NCBI GenBank assembly: GCA_013002305.1
Contig: JABDKG010000032.1
Span: forward strand, 1 to 64,000
DNA length: 64,000 nt
Reading direction: 5' to 3'
DNA from: Hellea sp.
Lineage (GTDB): Bacteria > Pseudomonadota > Alphaproteobacteria > Caulobacterales > Maricaulaceae
A program made the position numbers and the translations under genes. The notes beneath the pieces are model-generated. The model saw only the letters and a program-made list of their open reading frames with translations, searched no databases and was not told where the DNA came from. Shown piece after piece: positions 36,465 to 64,000 of this stretch; positions within the stretch are counted from its first letter, which is position 1; each line of letters begins with the position of its first letter.

Positions 36465-37778
36465 TTATGGCAAAAGTGGCGACCAAGCCGGGTCAGAAGC
36501 CCCGAGCGGCGTCGAAACTTTCCGTAAATTTCGGCCAGTCAAATCGACCGACCAGAGCGACGACGTGCCGTATTCACCTCGTGTTTCCTGATAAAACATG
36601 ATGACTCGGCCATTGGGCGACCAGGTCGGTACATCGTACATATAGCTTTCCGCTAAAATTCGTTCGCCGCTACCATCAATATTCATCACACCGATGGAGA
36701 ATTTTCCGTCGCGACTTTTAACAAAAGCAATTTTATCGCCGCGCGGCGACCAAACCGGCGAATTATACCGCCCTTTTCCAAAACTTATGCGTTTGGCGCT
36801 GCTACCATCTGCATTCATCACATAGAGCTGAGGCGTACCGCCGCGATCCGAGTTAAAGACAATCTTCTCCCCGTCCGGCGAATAGCTCCCGGACACGTCA
36901 ATTGCCGGGGATGTCGTAAGCCTTTTGGTAGATCGCGAGGATAAATCCATCGCATAAAGATCGCTATTGCCCTTTCTCATCAGGCTCAAGATCATGGATT
37001 GCCCGTCAGGAGAAAAACGCGGCGCAAATGTCATGTCGGGAAAGTTTCCAAGCAGTTCCCGGCGCCCTGTTTCAATATCATAAACATAAATATGACCCTT
37101 ACCGCTTTCATAAGACAGATAAGTGATCCGCTGGGAACTTGGCGAAAATCTCGGGGTCAATACCATGCCGCGCCCCGTATCAAGATACATCATATTGGCG
37201 CCGTCCTGATCCATTATCGCCAGTCTCTTTTCACGTTCGATTTTAGATCCGCTTTCGGATACAAAGACGATGCGGCTATCGAAATAACCGGTTTCGCCCG
37301 TCAGCTTTTCATAAATTGCATCGGAAATTTTATGGGCAACACGGCGCTCTTGATTGGGCGTCGTACCAAATACAATACCAGCAAGCTCCTCTCCGGACGA
37401 GATATCCCACAGCCGGGCTTCAACTCGAATACGCGTTGGGCTTTCAATGACAACTCTACCGAGAAGTAGAGCTTCGGCTTTTATTACCCGCCAATCCGCA
37501 AAGGTCGGCTTATAATTTAAATCTGTTTGGGTAGTTTGAAACTTATCCGGCGAAATTGACACAAATAATCCTGAACGTTCCAGGTCAGCCCGGATGATTT
37601 CCGAAATTTCGACGCCAAGTGCCTGCCCGTCTTGTCGATCGGAACTAAAATCAACAACTGCAATCGGAACCGGGTCTAAATTACCTTCGGTAATATCAAT
37701 GCGCAGCTGCGCATGGGCAAAATTAAACGTCCCCATCGCCAAAACAAATGTCAAAAATATGAGCCTGATTAAATTCAT
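36465..37778 (-). CDS. tolB: Tol-Pal translocation protein TolB
   Basis: TolB is the periplasmic partner of TolA and Pal. The 437 residues have a signal peptide (about 1-23, ending AHA), an N-terminal alpha/beta domain (about 25-165), and a six-bladed beta-propeller with repeats such as PRFSPDGQSMI, YSPDGEKIVFNSDRGG and PVWSPRGDKIAFV. The last strand ends with SDPAWSPLLP. It stands between tolA and pal, as in nearly all Gram-negative bacteria. Confidence 0.96.
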   Translation of the reverse strand: MNLIRLIFLTFVLAMGTFNFAHAQLRIDITEGNLDPVPIAVVDFSSDRQDGQALGVEISEIIRADLERSGLFVSISPDKFQTTQTDLNYKPTFADWRVIKAEALLLGRVVIESPTRIRVEARLWDISSGEELAGIVFGTTPNQERRVAHKISDAIYEKLTGETGYFDSRIVFVSESGSKIEREKRLAIMDQDGANMMYLDTGRGMVLTPRFSPSSQRITYLSYESGKGHIYVYDIETGRRELLGNFPDMTFAPRFSPDGQSMILSLMRKGNSDLYAMDLSSRSTKRLTTSPAIDVSGSYSPDGEKIVFNSDRGGTPQLYVMNADGSSAKRISFGKGRYNSPVWSPRGDKIAFVKSRDGKFSIGVMNIDGSGERILAESYMYDVPTWSPNGRVIMFYQETRGEYGTSSLWSVDLTGRNLRKVSTPLGASDPAWSPLLP

Positions 37779-37790
37779 AATTATTCCTGA

Positions 37791-38579
37791 TCAAACAGTT
37801 GGAATGAAACTTAACACCATGTCCTGCCAACTCGAATATTTCTCAATAGGCAGAAAATCATAGGGGCCGCAATCCTTTACCGCATTAACGGCGCGGCGAG
37901 CTGCAACTTCCATATGGGGGTTTTGGCTGCGAGCCACTTTGCGCGGTTCGTTAAGGCTGACGCTTTGGACATGTCCATCGCTACGCATTTTCACCCGAAC
38001 CTGGACCGCCAGTTCTTCGGGGTTTTTTGCATCTACGGGTTCACGCCAACATTCATACATTTTGGATTTTAACGCATCAATTTCGTTGAGCGAAAGAGAT
38101 GTTCCGGCGCCGACAGCGGCTTGCGAAACTGAAGAATAGAAAATGAAATTTTGTTCCGACGCAAGGGTTCGCTGCTGTCCGGCTTTGGGTTGGGTTTTCC
38201 GGGTATTATCGACGACAGCAGAAAAACTATCCAAATCAAACGGCTTTTCTTCGGTTTTACTAGTGGAATCCGGCTGATCCATATTTTCTGGAGTTAGGTT
38301 TGGACTGGTCTCAGGAGATGTACGCTCCGGTGTTTCGGGGTCGCCCTCTTCCGGCGCATTCTCCATCGGATTTTCAACCGTCATCGGCTGTTCTGGCTCT
38401 ATCGGTATCGGATCCGGTTTCTTGATACTGGCTCTGATGTTGGTCAATTCATCGATCGACGCGAGTTCGACATAAATAGCTTGCGACATTTCTACGTCGG
38501 TCTTCTTGGACAAGCTGATCCAAACCGATATGAGGATCAGGCTATGAAAAATGAGCGATATGGGCCACCCGAATTTCAT
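37791..38579 (-). CDS. tolA: Cell envelope protein TolA
   Basis: TolA spans the inner membrane and reaches Pal and TolB in the periplasm. One N-terminal membrane helix (about residues 4-22) carries the expected SxxxH-type element (SLIFHSLIL), which contacts TolQR. A Pro/Glu-rich region (about 55-115) replaces the long Ala/Lys helix of E. coli. The C-terminal domain has MYECWREPVDAKN, VQVRVKMRSDGHV and ARRAV, the TonB/TolA-like fold. The ATG overlaps the tolR stop as TAATG. Confidence 0.9.
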   Translation of the reverse strand: MKFGWPISLIFHSLILISVWISLSKKTDVEMSQAIYVELASIDELTNIRASIKKPDPIPIEPEQPMTVENPMENAPEEGDPETPERTSPETSPNLTPENMDQPDSTSKTEEKPFDLDSFSAVVDNTRKTQPKAGQQRTLASEQNFIFYSSVSQAAVGAGTSLSLNEIDALKSKMYECWREPVDAKNPEELAVQVRVKMRSDGHVQSVSLNEPRKVARSQNPHMEVAARRAVNAVKDCGPYDFLPIEKYSSWQDMVLSFIPTV

Positions 38580-39022
38580 TACTCATCACTTTTCATGTCC
38601 GTTACCAGATTAATATTGGAATATCCGGCGTCGCGGATATTGGACAATACATCGACAACCAATTCATAGTCAGCGGTGGCGTCACCTTGAAGATAAATCT
38701 TCTCCTCAAATCCTTTTGTTGCAAGTGCGCTGAGCCGGTCGACAAGCGTATCGGCGAAAATCTGCTCGTCCTGCAGGTAAAGCGATCCGTCCTGACGGAT
38801 ACTGACGATTACGGGATCTTGTTCGATGGATGTTGCTTGGCTGTCAGTCTTGGGAAGCTCCAGATCAACAACCGGCAATAGGGTCGCAGCTGTCATCATA
38901 AACACAAGCAGCAAGACCAGCATAACGTCAACTAGTGGCGTGACGTTTATATCTCGCTCGATCTTACGCCGGCGCGTTCGCCGACCCGAGCTGCTGCTCG
39001 ATCTATCGACATTCATGCCCAT
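38579..39022 (-). CDS. tolR: Biopolymer transport protein TolR
   Basis: TolR is the proton-channel partner of TolQ. This 147-residue protein has a basic N-terminus (RRTRRRKIERDINVTPLVDVMLVLLLVF); the membrane Asp of PLVDVMLV is the proton-conducting residue. The periplasmic domain ends with the short VATDMKSDE-like strand (here LVTDMKSDE). tolQ ends one base before its start; tolA starts in its stop codon. ExbD-like in general plan, but the tol gene order identifies it. Confidence 0.94.
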   Translation of the reverse strand: MGMNVDRSSSSSGRRTRRRKIERDINVTPLVDVMLVLLLVFMMTAATLLPVVDLELPKTDSQATSIEQDPVIVSIRQDGSLYLQDEQIFADTLVDRLSALATKGFEEKIYLQGDATADYELVVDVLSNIRDAGYSNINLVTDMKSDE

Positions 39023-39736
39023 TTAGGCGCCCTTGCTCAGCTTGCGGGACAAAATTGCCGATAACTCATCCGCATAGCCTTCTAATCTGCCAGCATATTT
39101 GTCCTGGGCATTGGCGAAAATATTGTAAAATATCACCGCGGGAATAGCGCATATTAGCCCAACCGCCGTCAAAAAGAGCGCCTCAGCAACGCCCGGCGCG
39201 ACAACTTCGAAATTGGCATTGCCGCTTTCGCTAATGGCACGAAATGAGGTGATAATACCCCAAACTGTCCCTAACAGACCCGCAAACAGCGACGTCGATC
39301 CGATCGTCCCTAGAATTGTCATGCCGCGGTCTGATTTGGCAAGTTCGCGATTCAGAACCAAGTTCATGACGCCATCGATACGGCGCATAGCGGTAGCTGC
39401 TGCGCCGTCACTGCGGCTAGCAAAGCCTTTGCTATCTTCCCATTCTTTCATGGCCGCTGAAAAAATACGCGCCATTGGATCACGAACATCATTTGCGAGC
39501 CCGGAAGACAGCTCTTCAAGAGTGCGGCCTGACCAAAAGGTCTCTTCAAACTTATCGGCTCGATTTTTCAGCAATCGAAATGTAATCAACTTATCAATTG
39601 CGATTGCCCAAGACCAAATCGACGCGATTATCAAAAGAATCAGAACCAGTTGAACGACGAGATCGGCTCTGCTGAAAAGCGCGAGTGGCGAAAAATCTAA
39701 ATTGGTAGCCAGCCATATATTGAGGGCAGAAATCAT
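39023..39736 (-). CDS. tolQ: Tol-Pal motor protein TolQ
   Basis: TolQ forms the pentameric proton channel that drives TolA. The 237 residues show three membrane helices: the first near residues 28-48 and the other two around GTIGSTSLFAGLLGTVWGII and AEALFLTAVGLICAIPAVIFYN. GLLGTVWGI and the T/A-rich last helix are the conserved channel parts. It is the first gene of the minus-strand tol run. The usual upstream acyl-CoA thioesterase ybgC is missing; a divergent lipoprotein gene lies there instead. Confidence 0.95.
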   Translation of the reverse strand: MISALNIWLATNLDFSPLALFSRADLVVQLVLILLIIASIWSWAIAIDKLITFRLLKNRADKFEETFWSGRTLEELSSGLANDVRDPMARIFSAAMKEWEDSKGFASRSDGAAATAMRRIDGVMNLVLNRELAKSDRGMTILGTIGSTSLFAGLLGTVWGIITSFRAISESGNANFEVVAPGVAEALFLTAVGLICAIPAVIFYNIFANAQDKYAGRLEGYADELSAILSRKLSKGA

Positions 39737-39928: not shown

Positions 39929-40291
39929 ATGACTTATAAGAAATTTTTGATTCTCGGACTCGCTGGAACATTGGCGGCTTGCCGAACAACACCTGAACCC
40001 GAAGCGCCCTCAGTCGAGGTCGAAACGCAGCCAGTTCAGACATGCACACCGATCTCAGCGCTTGAGAAAGTCGAAGTTCCAGCGGAAACCGAAACATTCA
40101 CGACGATCGTGTTGATCGATAATCCGCCCTATGATCCGATCGAAAGACGTGAGCAGCAAGTCCGTGTCGTAAAAGAAGCTTATTTTATCTATATTGATTC
40201 GGAAGGCAAAGAAGTTATTGATATTTGCGGCGAAGCCGCGGCTGACGAGACCATGATAGAAGAAACAGCGAACGAAACACCCGCTGAATAA
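39929..40291 (+). CDS. Small acidic lipoprotein
   Basis: This 120-residue protein has a signal peptide with lipobox LAAC (Cys18). The mature part is acidic, rich in Glu, Pro and Thr at both ends, with a central segment containing VVKEAYFIYIDSEGKEVIDIC. Two further Cys, in QTCTP and DICGE, could form a disulfide. No family is recognised. AAAGGACAAAG precedes the ATG. It is divergent from tolQ, which suggests an envelope role, but no function can be assigned. Confidence 0.65.
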   Translation: MTYKKFLILGLAGTLAACRTTPEPEAPSVEVETQPVQTCTPISALEKVEVPAETETFTTIVLIDNPPYDPIERREQQVRVVKEAYFIYIDSEGKEVIDICGEAAADETMIEETANETPAE

Positions 40292-40303: not shown

Positions 40304-40660
40304 CTAATTTTGGATAATGGCCAGCCCTGAGATGATTAATAAGGCACCCGCGAAATAGCGTAGGGTGAACTGTTCCTGTAAAAAAAAGAAAGCCAAAATC
40401 GGCACAAATACAAATGACAGAGCCATAAACGAATAGGCATAGACAAGAGGGACGGATTTGAGCACATAAATCCAGAGCAAGGTCGCGGACCCATAAATAG
40501 CAAGCGCTAAAATGAAAACCGGATTAAACAAGACCGTGTAAAAATTAGCCCCGGTCGTGACCAATTTCTCACTCGACATTTTAAATAAAAGCTGCCCGAC
40601 TGCGATACAAAATGGTGTGAGCAGTAAAAGCCCGACAACCGGCAAGGTCACAGCATTCAT
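40304..40660 (-). CDS. EmrE/ArnE-like four-helix DMT half transporter
   Basis: This 118-residue protein has four membrane helices and the small DMT plan, ending with QEQFTLRYFAGALLIISGLAIIQ. YAYSFMALSFVFVPILAFFFL is like the second half of an EamA unit. Proteins of this size work as dimers; ArnE/ArnF flip undecaprenyl-linked aminoarabinose. The ATG at 40660 overlaps the methyltransferase stop as ATGA; the longer frame to 40705 lies within that gene. It is the last of three minus-strand genes (family 2 glycosyltransferase, methyltransferase, this), consistent with a lipid-linked sugar flippase. Confidence 0.75.
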   Translation of the reverse strand: MNAVTLPVVGLLLLTPFCIAVGQLLFKMSSEKLVTTGANFYTVLFNPVFILALAIYGSATLLWIYVLKSVPLVYAYSFMALSFVFVPILAFFFLQEQFTLRYFAGALLIISGLAIIQN

Positions 40661-41382
40661 TGTGCTGCTGCCAACATTTCCACATATTCCGGCATTGTTT
40701 CGCAATAATAGATATCGCGTTTTAAATCATCGCAATCATGATTATGCGGCACGGGCTGCATCGCCCGTAAGAATGAATGTCTATAAGGGAAGAAATTGAA
40801 ATGCGGATTGAAGGTATATTTATACTCGCGCTCGCGCGGAACAACGATTATTAATCGGTGCTTGGTAATTCTACGGAGCTCGGCAATCGCCGCCCGATAA
40901 TCTAATACATGCTCAATAACATGGGTACATATCACCGTATCAAAGGCGTTATCCGCAAAAGGTAAGTCCTCTATTTTAGCGGCCACATATTCAATATTTG
41001 GCAGGGCTTCAGCATCATCTATCGCGAAATCCACACCGGTTAATTGGGTCAAATCGGGTCGCCGATTATTGATTTCCTGCAAAAGAAATCCAGTTCCGCA
41101 ACCGACATCACAAATTGAAGGACCTATCGCGTCTTTCGCAATTCGTTCGATACAAATCTCTGAATTATCCGTGCCTTCGTGAACGCGCGGGTGATTTTTA
41201 TAGAGGTCTTCATATTCCTCATCAGTCAGAAAAGCCGCCCGTTCGCGAAATTTTGCCAAATCTGTAATGTGTCGGCCCCAAACCAAACTCGCCAGGCCCC
41301 GGAATAAAAATGAATCCCGCAAAAAAGGCGGGACAATATCTTCCAGCACAAACCGGATTTTATTGGTGGTTTCGCGGCGCAT
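40657..41382 (-). CDS. Class I SAM-dependent methyltransferase
   Basis: This 241-residue enzyme has motif I DVGCGTGFLLQEI, an Asp after the next strand (GVDFA), the FDTVICTHVIEHV motif and RLIIVVPRE. This is the methyltransferase 11/UbiE-like fold, with an N-terminal helical region (about residues 1-80). It lies between a family 2 glycosyltransferase and a half-size DMT transporter on the same strand, overlapping the latter. Methylation of a sugar or lipid-linked intermediate is a reasonable inference; sequence alone does not identify the substrate. Confidence 0.85.
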   Translation of the reverse strand: MRRETTNKIRFVLEDIVPPFLRDSFLFRGLASLVWGRHITDLAKFRERAAFLTDEEYEDLYKNHPRVHEGTDNSEICIERIAKDAIGPSICDVGCGTGFLLQEINNRRPDLTQLTGVDFAIDDAEALPNIEYVAAKIEDLPFADNAFDTVICTHVIEHVLDYRAAIAELRRITKHRLIIVVPREREYKYTFNPHFNFFPYRHSFLRAMQPVPHNHDCDDLKRDIYYCETMPEYVEMLAAAQ

Positions 41383-41383
41383 A

Positions 41384-42409
41384 TTACTTGCCTTTGGATT
41401 TCCGAGATTTGATTCCCTGCGTCTCTATCTCATCATCGCGTCGCTCCAAAACATTGCGGAGGCCGTGCGTATATCCCTCGCCGCGGGACGGCGCGATAGA
41501 GAGGTAGAAAATCCGTTTTTGCTCAGCTCTGGATCGGGCAAGCGAGTCTAGGATCATACCTGCGGTAAATGTCATCATTCCGGCAAGCACCAATGTCATC
41601 CCTAAAACCCATGACGGCGCGCGTTCAACCAAGCCCGTTTGGAAATATTCGATTAAAACCGGTACAATAAAAATTAAGCTGGTTGCGAAAATCACAGCGC
41701 TAATCGCGCCAAAGAAAATAAATGGTCGGGTTTCTTTTAATAGGGTGCCAATCATCCGCAGAATTTTGAACCCGTCTCTAAACGTTGACAATTTGCTTTC
41801 TGAACCCTCACCGCGGCGACCATAGTCACATTCGATTTCGGCAACTGGCAAGCGCAGAACAGAGGCGTGGACTGACATTTCTGTTTCGATTTCAAATCCG
41901 GGACTCTCTGCCGGAAAGCTTTTGGCAAACCGGCGATTAAATGCCCGGAAGCCTGAAAAAATATCCGAAAAATCATTTCCAAATGCAAAACGATATATGC
42001 GGTTAAATATAGCATTGCCAAAGGCGTGGCCTTTGCGTCCCGCATCTTGTTTGACGTCTTTTCGGGTACCCACCACCATATCAAGGCGATCTGTCAGCAA
42101 TTTTTCGATCAATACCGGCGCTTTTGCGGCGTCATAAGTCCCGTCGCCATCGGCCATGAGATAGATATCGGCCTCAATGTCGGAGAACATTTGTCGGACC
42201 ACATTACCTTTACCCTGACGCGGACTTGGGACAACGATCGCGCCGGCGAGAATGGCTTGCTGAGCCGTTTCGTCAGTAGAATTATTGTCATAAACATAGA
42301 TCTGAGCGCTTGGGAGCGCCTTGCGAAATTCGAGGACGACTCCCGCAATTGAATTGGCTTCATTATAGCATGGCAACAGGACAGCAATTGATAAGTTCGA
42401 AAAATCCAC
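41384..42409 (-). CDS. Family 2 glycosyltransferase with C-terminal membrane helices
   Basis: This 341-residue protein starts with the GT-A fold: VLLPCYNEANSIA, YDNNSTDETA, then ADGDGTYDAA with the metal-binding DGD, and FSDIFSGFRAFNRRF. Two membrane helices follow (about 240-262 and 277-300). This plan fits polyprenyl-phosphate sugar transferases (dolichol-phosphate-mannose synthase or ArnC type). The start is GTG at 42409, preceded directly by GGATTTTCC. It is divergent from the GT-C-like gene and upstream of the methyltransferase and half-flippase genes. Confidence 0.88.
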   Translation of the reverse strand: MDFSNLSIAVLLPCYNEANSIAGVVLEFRKALPSAQIYVYDNNSTDETAQQAILAGAIVVPSPRQGKGNVVRQMFSDIEADIYLMADGDGTYDAAKAPVLIEKLLTDRLDMVVGTRKDVKQDAGRKGHAFGNAIFNRIYRFAFGNDFSDIFSGFRAFNRRFAKSFPAESPGFEIETEMSVHASVLRLPVAEIECDYGRRGEGSESKLSTFRDGFKILRMIGTLLKETRPFIFFGAISAVIFATSLIFIVPVLIEYFQTGLVERAPSWVLGMTLVLAGMMTFTAGMILDSLARSRAEQKRIFYLSIAPSRGEGYTHGLRNVLERRDDEIETQGIKSRKSKGK

Positions 42410-42489
42410 GGAAAATCCCCATCATAAAATTTTTACGAAATATTACACAATATCGTTAAGTTTCAGTTGCCAACATTAGCGGATTTTCC
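42410..42489. promoter_or_regulatory. Divergent promoter region framed by a 9-bp inverted repeat
   Basis: The region between the family 2 glycosyltransferase and the GT-C gene begins with GGAAAATCC (42410-42418) and ends with GGATTTTCC (42481-42489). Read from each gene, GGATTTTCC sits directly before the start codon. The GGA may act as a weak ribosome site at normal spacing. On the minus strand TATGAT (42426-42421) could be a -10 for the glycosyltransferase. The middle is AT-rich. Confidence 0.5.
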
Positions 42490-44259
42490 ATGATTAGTGA
42501 TCGCCAAAAGCTATTCCTACCTGGGTTAGCTATCATCATATTTTTCGGAATTATCATGCAAAGCATTTCCGCTGGTGAGTTTGGCGTGATTGGTGGTGAT
42601 AGTGATGATCAACTCAGATTAATCCAAATTCGCGACTATTATCTCCACGGTCAGAACTGGTTTGACACCCAGCAATATCGACTTGGGATAGCTGGCGGCA
42701 CCGACATTCACTGGTCACGTCTGGTTGATATACCATTTATCTTTCTAATAGCATTTTTTGATTTATTCTTAAGCTACGAACTAGCTGAAGCGATAGCAAT
42801 ATCCGTCTGGCCTCCCCTTAGCGCTATTGTAGTGATGCTGGGTATTTATATAGCCGCGCGAAATCTGGCCGGGCGCAAAGCGGGATTCATTGCAGCAATT
42901 ATCAGCGCGCTTTTTATCACATTTCACTATCGTTTCAGCGTCGGCGCAATAGATCACCATAATGTGCAAATCGGGCTTTTGTGTTTGTCGATGGGTTTTG
43001 CCTTAGATCCCGAATATGATTCGCGCGCTTTTTTGCTAAGCGGAATTTTTGTCGGATTGTCAGCAGCAATCGGTAATGAGGTCTACCTGTTTGTGGGTAT
43101 CATATGCGGGTTCATCGCGTTGCTTTGGTTATTTAAGAGCCGCAAATGCCGCGCCGCTGTTCAAGCTTTTGGTATCGGATTTGCGCTGACTATCGCCTTT
43201 ACATTCTTCGCCGCAATTTCGCCGAGAGAATATAGCCTGATTTATTGTGACGCATTGTCTTTAATTACGGTAAGCGCCGCAGGTTTAGGGGGACTCGGGC
43301 TGGCTTTGTTGGCCAATCGGTTTTCGGCCAGTTCAATAAAATTTCGTTTTGGCCTCCTCATATTGCTGGGCCTTGGGACCCTGCTGCTTCTGAAATTACA
43401 AGCGCCGGAATGTCTGCAAAATCCACTGGATGTCTTGCCAGAGAAAGTCCGCACATATTGGCTGGCCAATATCACCGAGGCCAAGCCTTTATTGCAGGAA
43501 CCGAAAAGCTATTATTTGGAGGCCCCGTTTTTTCTGGGCGGTTCTCTCGTTGCGCTTACTGTCTGCATATTTCAGATCTTAAAGCGAAATGCATATAAAT
43601 TTGCATTGCCAGCCGCGCTCATTCTAGTCGCTATTCTGATGGCGCTTTATCAGGTTCGATTTGCGATATTTGCGCAATTTTTTGCCTTTTCAATTTTGGG
43701 CATATGGATTTATCTGCTGTATAATAACCGGGAAAAATCCGGAAAGACGAATATTGCATATATTGGCGCGCTGGCCCTCTCGATCCCTATATTTTGGACA
43801 ATACCGGGCATCATGTTCGCTCCGGCTCAAGACAAGAACGATCTCAAATCTGTCGGCAAAATTTGCTACTCCGACGAAGTGCTCCAAGCCGTCAAATCTA
43901 TGCCAAAAGGCAAGATTTTGGCTGGCTATAACGCGGCTCCGCACATCCTCCTAAAAACAGATCATTCTGTGCTATCGGGTAATTATCACAGAAATGCGAA
44001 GGGCCTTCTCTCAGCGATTGAAATTTTTAGCGCCAACGAACCACAGGCCAGTAATAGGCTAGCAACTCAGAATATCAGATACATTATGACTTGCGACGCT
44101 GAAGCCAATGATAAGTTTTCAGATGGCAATCCGGAGGGTCTATTAGCTAAATTACTAAAAGGTGACATTCCACCTTATCTGTCCCAAGATCTCAGCCTTA
44201 AAGCGGGCGCAGTCAAAATTTACCGCATTATCCCTGAGAAAATTGATCCCTCAGAATAA
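42490..44259 (+). CDS. GT-C-fold membrane glycosyltransferase (STT3/oligosaccharyltransferase-like)
   Basis: This 589-residue protein has about eleven hydrophobic helices and a soluble C-terminal domain (from about residue 450). Early in the sequence is GGDSDDQLRLIQIRDYY, an acidic first-loop motif, and further on FSVGAIDHHNVQ, comparable with the DHH-type loop of STT3/PglB enzymes. The family resembles alphaproteobacterial STT3-like proteins with HWSRLVDIP. It would take a sugar from a polyprenyl carrier to a periplasmic acceptor. The hallmark WWDYG of oligosaccharyltransferases is not seen, so the acceptor is open. Confidence 0.65.
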   Translation: MISDRQKLFLPGLAIIIFFGIIMQSISAGEFGVIGGDSDDQLRLIQIRDYYLHGQNWFDTQQYRLGIAGGTDIHWSRLVDIPFIFLIAFFDLFLSYELAEAIAISVWPPLSAIVVMLGIYIAARNLAGRKAGFIAAIISALFITFHYRFSVGAIDHHNVQIGLLCLSMGFALDPEYDSRAFLLSGIFVGLSAAIGNEVYLFVGIICGFIALLWLFKSRKCRAAVQAFGIGFALTIAFTFFAAISPREYSLIYCDALSLITVSAAGLGGLGLALLANRFSASSIKFRFGLLILLGLGTLLLLKLQAPECLQNPLDVLPEKVRTYWLANITEAKPLLQEPKSYYLEAPFFLGGSLVALTVCIFQILKRNAYKFALPAALILVAILMALYQVRFAIFAQFFAFSILGIWIYLLYNNREKSGKTNIAYIGALALSIPIFWTIPGIMFAPAQDKNDLKSVGKICYSDEVLQAVKSMPKGKILAGYNAAPHILLKTDHSVLSGNYHRNAKGLLSAIEIFSANEPQASNRLATQNIRYIMTCDAEANDKFSDGNPEGLLAKLLKGDIPPYLSQDLSLKAGAVKIYRIIPEKIDPSE

Positions 44260-63544: not shown

Positions 63545-64000
63545 TTAAACTTCGTCCCAGCCTTCCGGGTTTCGGGCTCTACGATTCAGCCACATGACCC
63601 CGCGCAAGTCCGAAATCGAGACTATGAGCCGGCCAAAATTTGTATATTTGGACACGCCAAATTCCCGGTGCCGATGATTGACGTCACAAAATTCTGTCAC
63701 ATAGCCCTCACGTAGCATCAAAGCCGGGATATACCGGTGCACATGGTCAAAAAACGGTAGCCGCAAAAAGGCTTCCCTCGAAAAAACTTTTAGCCCGCAT
63801 CCCGTATCATCAGCATTATCCTTTAACAATTTCTTGCGGATACCGTTCCCAAAACGCGAGCCAAATCTCTTGGCCCAGCTATCTTTGCGTTTTGCCCGTC
63901 TTCCGCCGACTAGTCCTAGATTTTCCGGGGCATCTTCGCGAGAAAATTGAGCATAAAGCGCGGGGATATCAGCTGGGTCATTCTGTCCATCGCCGTCGAG
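63545..64000 (-). CDS. Family 2 glycosyltransferase (DPM1-like), N-terminus beyond the window
   Basis: The frame stays open to the right edge, so the N-terminus lies outside. The first visible residues are LDGDGQNDP, the metal-binding DGD of GT-A enzymes, then GGRR, DTGCGLKVF and RYIPALM. HREFGVSKYTNFGR is typical of dolichol-phosphate-mannose-synthase-like proteins. The fragment has 151 residues. A C-terminal stretch (LRGVMWLNRRARNPEGW) resembles the end of a bacterial subgroup found near lipid A biosynthesis N-terminal domain genes. Which lipid-linked sugar it makes is unknown. It is 84 bp upstream of the membrane protein gene. Confidence 0.88.
   Translation of the reverse strand, partial: LDGDGQNDPADIPALYAQFSREDAPENLGLVGGRRAKRKDSWAKRFGSRFGNGIRKKLLKDNADDTGCGLKVFSREAFLRLPFFDHVHRYIPALMLREGYVTEFCDVNHRHREFGVSKYTNFGRLIVSISDLRGVMWLNRRARNPEGWDEV

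Follow-up and report, generated by a model that had tools for sequence, protein, structure and literature searches.

A probable transmembrane glycosylation system with an STT3-like final transferase and a flippase-linked methyltransferase in Hellea

A 64,000-nucleotide stretch of DNA from the alphaproteobacterium Hellea sp. (assembly GCA_013002305.1, contig JABDKG010000032.1, positions 1 to 64,000; hereafter the window) contains four adjacent genes encoding a small membrane protein of the SMR type, a class I methyltransferase dependent on S-adenosylmethionine (SAM), a GT2 glycosyltransferase and a large glycosyltransferase of the GT-C type. We propose that they probably represent a three-component transmembrane glycosylation system, with a GT2 lipid-phosphate-sugar synthase, a small flippase and an STT3-type final transferase, to which an SMR-linked methyltransferase is added as an optional part. 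A first-pass annotation had placed the four genes at the positions now confirmed by open reading frame (ORF) calls and had read synthase, flippase and GT-C protein as one system. That reading holds, but the closest parallels are AglJ/AglB and the Gtr-type systems rather than the Arn system that had been invoked.

The predicted structure of the GT-C protein (pLDDT 93.2, pTM 0.93) has the whole-length fold of STT3 and AglB, including the C-terminal domain, which is presumably extracytoplasmic. A Foldseek search with the model gave AglB (7e9s, 3.4e-13) and yeast STT3 (5.1e-13) as the top matches, with DPY19 (6e-9), PglB (1.9e-8) and ArnT (2.6e-4) at lower ranks. VIA-align yielded Z scores of 27.2 for yeast STT3 and 27.1 for AglB (3waj; 504 residues, 3.3 Å), followed by PglB (20.6), DPY19 (20.5), ArnT (19.6) and PMT (17.1), and residues 454–581 aligned to the AglB C-terminal domain 3vu0 with a Z of 13.5. 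The earlier description of the protein as STT3-like is therefore borne out, and an orthologue of ArnT is disfavoured (Z of 19.6 versus 27).

Sequence searches point in the same direction. The single sequence matches the archaeal STT3 model TIGR04154 at 1.5e-13, with 50 bits versus a cut-off of 450. Two alignments of the family were used: a diverse one of 37 rows (A1), representing 37 of 43 full-length-looking proteins from loci L002–L049 with some near-duplicates excluded, and a closer one of 79 rows (A3), from which L163 and L171 were excluded because of undetermined bases. TIGR04154 is matched by 18 of the 37 diverse relatives at 0.001. The Pfam STT3 family (PF02516) gave no match to the GT-C protein in its own genome and matched 0/37 members at 0.001; no Pfam family matches 36 of the 37 members scanned. 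No PDB sequence was found with the single sequence and none at E≤1 with the A3 profile, whereas the A1 profile retrieved the AglB C-terminal domain (3vgp, 2e-4; 3vu0, 7e-4) and STT3A (0.003).

Residues matching the active site of this fold are present. PMC7226087 equates PglB D56, E319, D154, D156 and R147 with AglB D47, E360, D161, H163 and R154, and the first four have counterparts in the Hellea protein at D39, E330, D155 and H157 (Table 1), a pairing that rests on profile alignment, position and spacing, not on residue-level superposition. In the alignment of the A1 profile to STT3A, DHH falls over DNE and the E330 stretch (EA) over SVSE. D155 is present in 36/37 diverse and 79/79 close rows, and H157 in 36/37 and 72/79, the remaining seven close rows having D, like D156 of PglB. 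Arginine is found at the AglB spacing (R148) in 73/79 close rows but in 8/37 diverse rows, and 21 of the 37 have it at 153 instead. The first-pass annotation had let its proposal hang on acidic active-site residues, and these are in place as D39, D155 and E330.

The WWD motif with which oligosaccharyltransferases read their sequon is in none of the rows (0/37 and 0/79). Since PF02516 is also unmatched, the GT-C protein is not called an oligosaccharyltransferase, and a canonical enzyme of that kind is ruled out. With an STT3-type site and the C-terminal domain retained but the sequon motif missing, we assign it the role of final transferase in a three-component system, one that may work like, but is not classed as, an oligosaccharyltransferase. 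Y499-H500, invariant in all 37 and all 79 rows, might serve as a substitute recognition feature.

The other three proteins belong to families suited to such a system. The GT2 protein matches Pfam Glycos_transf_2 (6.3e-16) and, best among NCBIfam models, the AglJ model TIGR04182 (3.5e-61), although its 207 bits do not reach the curated equivalog cut-off of 325; among solved structures it matches dolichol-phosphate-mannose (DPM) synthase (5mlz, 6.7e-8). By family resemblance it would be of the lipid-phosphate-sugar synthase type. The small membrane protein matches EamA (2e-7), ArnE (4.7e-12) and ArnF (9.5e-10) and is nearest to ArnE/ArnF, its scores of 46.1 and 39 bits staying below the NCBI equivalog cut-offs of 92 and 99; it is the small candidate flippase of the cluster. 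The methyltransferase matches Methyltransf_11 (3.3e-17), and its profile gave no match to PDB sequences at 1e-8. Its model (pLDDT 75.7) resembles many class I methyltransferases, and these structural matches point to no substrate.

Two other explanations draw on the same evidence. In one, in the style of haloarchaeal AglJ–AglB, a (methylated) sugar is passed to periplasmic or surface proteins at a recognition site other than N-X-S/T. The folds nearest to the GT-C protein, AglB/STT3 and then DPY19 and PglB, are all those of protein glycosyltransferases, its C-terminal domain is retained and the GT2 protein is nearest to the AglJ model, whereas the missing WWD, the unmatched PF02516 and the absence of any conserved acceptor gene or glycoprotein candidate beside the locus in the neighbourhoods inspected make this explanation doubtful. 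In the other, an Arn- or Rgt-like system adds a sugar to lipid A or the lipopolysaccharide (LPS) core by an identical logic, with an SMR protein nearest to ArnE/ArnF. We consider this a possible but clearly secondary explanation, given the closer fit of the GT-C fold to STT3 than to ArnT and the failure to recognize a lipid A gene beside the locus in the neighbourhoods inspected. The genome moreover holds another GT2 and ArnT-like (PMT_2) pair at the end of the window, and the earlier suggestion of lipid A as a target of the four genes loses ground accordingly. This second GT2 gene (245 amino acids, 63545–64000, continuing to contig position 64282) is partnered by a PMT_2/ArnT-like GT-C gene (615 amino acids, contig 64273–66120), and the pair is a candidate for a separate lipid-sugar system. 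In genomes G160 and G214, an AglJ-like GT2 gene adjoins a homologue of the ArnT-like gene instead.

The proposed system is supported by gene neighbourhoods. A scan of named genomes gave 497 relatives of the GT-C protein, of which the best 80 loci were kept and tallied. A GT2 gene lies beside the GT-C gene in 74 of these and an SMR or GtrA gene in 63 (28 SMR, 35 GtrA alone). By type, there are 35 loci with GtrA and GT2, 13 with SMR, methyltransferase and GT2, nine with the same set and a borderline GtrA-like gene, five with SMR and GT2, four with methyltransferase and GT2, and one with GT2 and SMR on the plus strand. GtrA was confirmed by Pfam for one representative (6.6e-19). Two of the nine borderline GtrA-like genes were tested with Pfam (25.6 bits versus a cut-off of 26.1; E of 0.0076), and in the trees described below these nine loci count as SMR. 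In a sample of 80 genomes of the order, a single GT-C query found relatives in 27 (own genome included); GT2 adjoins GT-C in 11 of the 27, five of these also with GtrA. A strong GT2 match (E<1e-80) occurs in 21/27 genomes with GT-C versus 3/53 without (G201, G206 and G214; P=4e-11, kinship ignored). Conservation of the arrangement far exceeds chance. The four genes together are a different matter. The methyltransferase (E≤1e-20) is found in 3/80 order genomes, all with GT-C, and the full set in 3/80. The expectation that the four genes co-occur thus stands for GT2 and GT-C and falls for the set as a whole, with the methyltransferase in 26 of the 80 loci. An obligate four-gene system is ruled out: GT2 and GT-C form the core, the methyltransferase is optional and the flippase would be SMR or GtrA.

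The two flippase types have been exchanged repeatedly, and the methyltransferase follows one of them. For Gtr systems, PMC11127046 and PMC8035078 put GtrA forward as the flippase. A tree was built from 79 GT-C proteins, 62 of which fall into the SMR or the GtrA group (17 rows are in neither). The flippase state changes eight times on it, at least six of them on supported branches, and the methyltransferase accompanies SMR in 6/6 independent pairs (two-sided sign test, 0.031). A GT2 tree gives eight changes, at least four supported, with the methyltransferase accompanying SMR in 4/4 pairs (P=0.125). The two trees come from quick searches, and in the GT-C tree the rows of the window and of Hellea form long branches with an unusual composition. 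GtrA is carried by Shinella granuli (L128), whereas Shinella sp. SUS2 (L130) has SMR and methyltransferase, yet their GT-C proteins are 90.6% and their GT2 proteins 96.7% identical. Across the tallied loci, 22 of the 26 with a methyltransferase also have SMR and none of the 35 GtrA-only loci has one; a 2×2 test of SMR and methyltransferase (22, 6, 2, 42) gives P=5e-11 with kinship ignored and eight of the 80 loci excluded (six without GT2, two contig-cut; the contig-cut L116 was retained). That an ArnE/F-like SMR protein replaces GtrA at one gene place supports a flippase role for both. Given the tie of the methyltransferase to SMR, it may be the methyl group, or the sugar bearing it, that decides which flippase works.

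The methyltransferase might instead be an unrelated passenger in a system of GT2, flippase and GT-C alone, as its absence from 54/80 loci would allow. Such a passenger would hardly keep its position between SMR and GT2 in both the Hyphomonas-type and the Rhizobiaceae loci, vary together with SMR in 6/6 independent contrasts, or remain 66–76% identical to the window copy across those loci, and we regard this explanation as very unlikely. The methyltransferase is best read as a module that is optional and goes with the SMR flippase. In these loci the methyltransferase and GT2 (62–83% identical to the window copy) are much better conserved than GT-C (31–46%).

Several points weigh against the proposed system. 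Seven of the 80 loci have GT2 without a recognized flippase or methyltransferase and six have none of these genes, and the methyltransferase occurs without SMR in four, two of which are contig-cut. Strong GT2 matches are missing from six of the 27 order genomes with GT-C (G144, G150, G154, G181, G185 and G217). Many distant members of the GT-C family have no adjoining GT2 gene, so that the protein may use other donors there. The substrate of the methyltransferase could be a nucleotide sugar or something else, and a fold on its own, here a predicted one, is no proof of chemistry.

We nevertheless favour the three-component system, in which the proteins might act as follows. GT2 would take a single sugar from its nucleotide donor and load it, at the cytoplasmic face of the membrane, onto polyprenyl phosphate. 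This sugar would be the substrate of the methyltransferase, whose action most likely falls in the lipid-linked stage that precedes flipping. ArnD deformylates its lipid-linked sugar ahead of flipping, which is a precedent for modification at this stage. The SMR protein would then flip the lipid-linked sugar, and the STT3-like GT-C protein would pass it to an acceptor outside the cytoplasm. We lean, at somewhat better than even likelihood, towards an envelope glycan as that acceptor, counting LPS among these; a protein acceptor seems unlikely, and the remaining share goes to other kinds of molecule. If the acceptor is a protein, the genes would provide an oligosaccharyltransferase-like pathway in a class rich in symbionts, and we know of no earlier description of one. 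It may even be, though we think it rather unlikely, that AglJ/AglB-type protein glycosylation without an N-X-S/T motif is widespread and unrecognized in alphaproteobacteria, with flippase and sugar methyltransferase exchanged together so that methyl mark and flippase specificity evolve as one module.

Neighbouring genes offer a hint of the donor. A UDP-glucose/GDP-mannose dehydrogenase gene lies shortly after GT-C in seven of the 80 loci (L118, L119, L123, L140, L141, L143 and L151), and six loci of this Hyphomonas-like group have a phosphogluco/phosphomannomutase gene at the opposite, flippase end. They may point to a hexuronic or hexose donor, but their limitation to this one group is too narrow to decide the sugar. 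A gene resembling a sensor histidine kinase (cluster c28) adjoins GT-C or GT2 in nine Hyphomonas-type loci (L101–L107, L110 and L113), and in six of the nine the locus has no GT2 gene.

Table 1. Features of the glycosylation locus (window positions)
Feature	Position	Strand	Basis
SMR/ArnE-ArnF-like small membrane protein, 118 aa (amino acids), candidate polyprenyl-phosphate-sugar flippase	40304..40660	minus	family match
Candidate sugar methyltransferase of class I, SAM-dependent, 241 aa	40657..41382	minus	
GT2 polyprenyl-phosphate sugar synthase (predicted), AglJ/DPMS-like, 341 aa, GTG start	41384..42409	minus	
80-bp gap between divergent GT2 and GT-C genes	42410..42489		sequence only
STT3/AglB-like GT-C glycosyltransferase, 589 aa	42490..44259	plus	
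D39 codon, matched to AglB D47 / PglB D56	42604..42606	plus	37/37 and 79/79 rows
D155-H156-H157 codons, matched to AglB D161/H163	42952..42960	plus	
E330 codon, matched to AglB E360 / PglB E319	43477..43479	plus	37/37 and 79/79 rows
C-terminal domain, ~residues 454–583, AglB C-terminal fold without WWD	43849..44238	plus	3vu0 Z 13.5

The three minus-strand genes are as tightly packed as the first-pass annotation had described, with 1 bp between the methyltransferase and GT2 genes. A longer flippase ORF from a TTG start (40304–40705, minus strand) exists, but the ATG at 40660 is the more likely start, and its use refines the reported overlap with the methyltransferase stop to the four bases ATGA. 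The promoters of the divergent GT2 and GT-C genes presumably lie in the gap between them. The four-gene stretch has a GC content of 45.7% versus 50.2% for the whole window. It is flanked by a Tol-Pal cluster (36465–39736) and, on the other side, by genes for an acyl-CoA ligase and glucose-6-phosphate isomerase, the convergent ligase gene overlapping GT-C by 32 bp (44228–44259). A small lipoprotein-like ORF (39929–40291, 120 amino acids) has a Cys near its N terminus and no Pfam match; three Hellea loci (L098, L099 and L117) and L100 also retain it next to the cluster.

Relatives of the GT-C protein are found in 17/144 genomes of the class (own genome included) with the single query, and the 37-row profile finds them in 49/299 sampled Pseudomonadota genomes, 44 within the class and five outside it, one of these at E of 9e-4 only. 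Among the best 80 of the 497 relatives, those in Hellea metagenome-assembled genomes (MAGs) are nearest (42–47%), followed by Hyphomonas, Rhizobium, Shinella, Neorhizobium, Hoeflea and others. The annotated records of the family that were inspected are labelled hypothetical or 'AcrB/AcrD/AcrF family protein'; the latter label on a relative from a Sphingomonas plasmid (H3; NZ_CP155751.1, 199492–200451) looks like a misannotation. On the GT-C tree, loci L119, L124 and L141, titled Sulfopaludibacter or Acidobacteria, form a tight group with loci from Hyphomonas MAGs, and their titles or bins are probably wrong.

A family that is common in alphaproteobacteria but missed by standard annotation can be named STT3-like GT-C and given a known set of partners, so that its function can be tested in Rhizobium, Shinella and Hyphomonas. 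GtrA has been exchanged for SMR and methyltransferase several times, which counts as natural evidence for lipid-phosphate-sugar flipping by both small proteins and hints at a role of methylation in setting flippase specificity; for the transporters that it discusses, PMC11127046 describes direct evidence of flippase activity as lacking. A literature search by titles and abstract openings returned nothing on STT3-like GT-C proteins of alphaproteobacteria.

Among known systems, the Gtr-type (GtrA-GtrB-Gtr*, CsbB-GtcA-YfhO and GT136), as presented in PMC11127046 and PMC8035078, share a GT-A/GT2 lipid-phosphate-sugar synthase, a small flippase and a GT-C final transferase, and the related Rhizobium loci likewise use a true GtrA; unlike them, the window has a GT-C protein of an STT3-like family, SMR in place of GtrA and an added methyltransferase. 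The resemblance to haloarchaeal AglJ/AglB lies in the best hits (the AglJ model for GT2, the AglB structure and the archaeal model TIGR04154 for GT-C), but the models stay below their curated cut-offs, WWD is missing and no elongating set of glycosyltransferases was seen adjoining. With the Arn system (ArnC, ArnE/F and ArnT) the locus shares its logic and an SMR protein nearest to ArnE/ArnF, whereas its GT-C fold is nearer to STT3 than to ArnT and a methyltransferase stands there instead of ArnA/B/D. The C-mannosyltransferase DPY19 shares the STT3-like fold (Z of 20.5) and uses a lipid-phosphate-monosaccharide, its structure being titled with Dol25-P-Man. It is, however, eukaryotic, acts on tryptophan and is only ~9% identical to the Hellea protein over the structural alignment.

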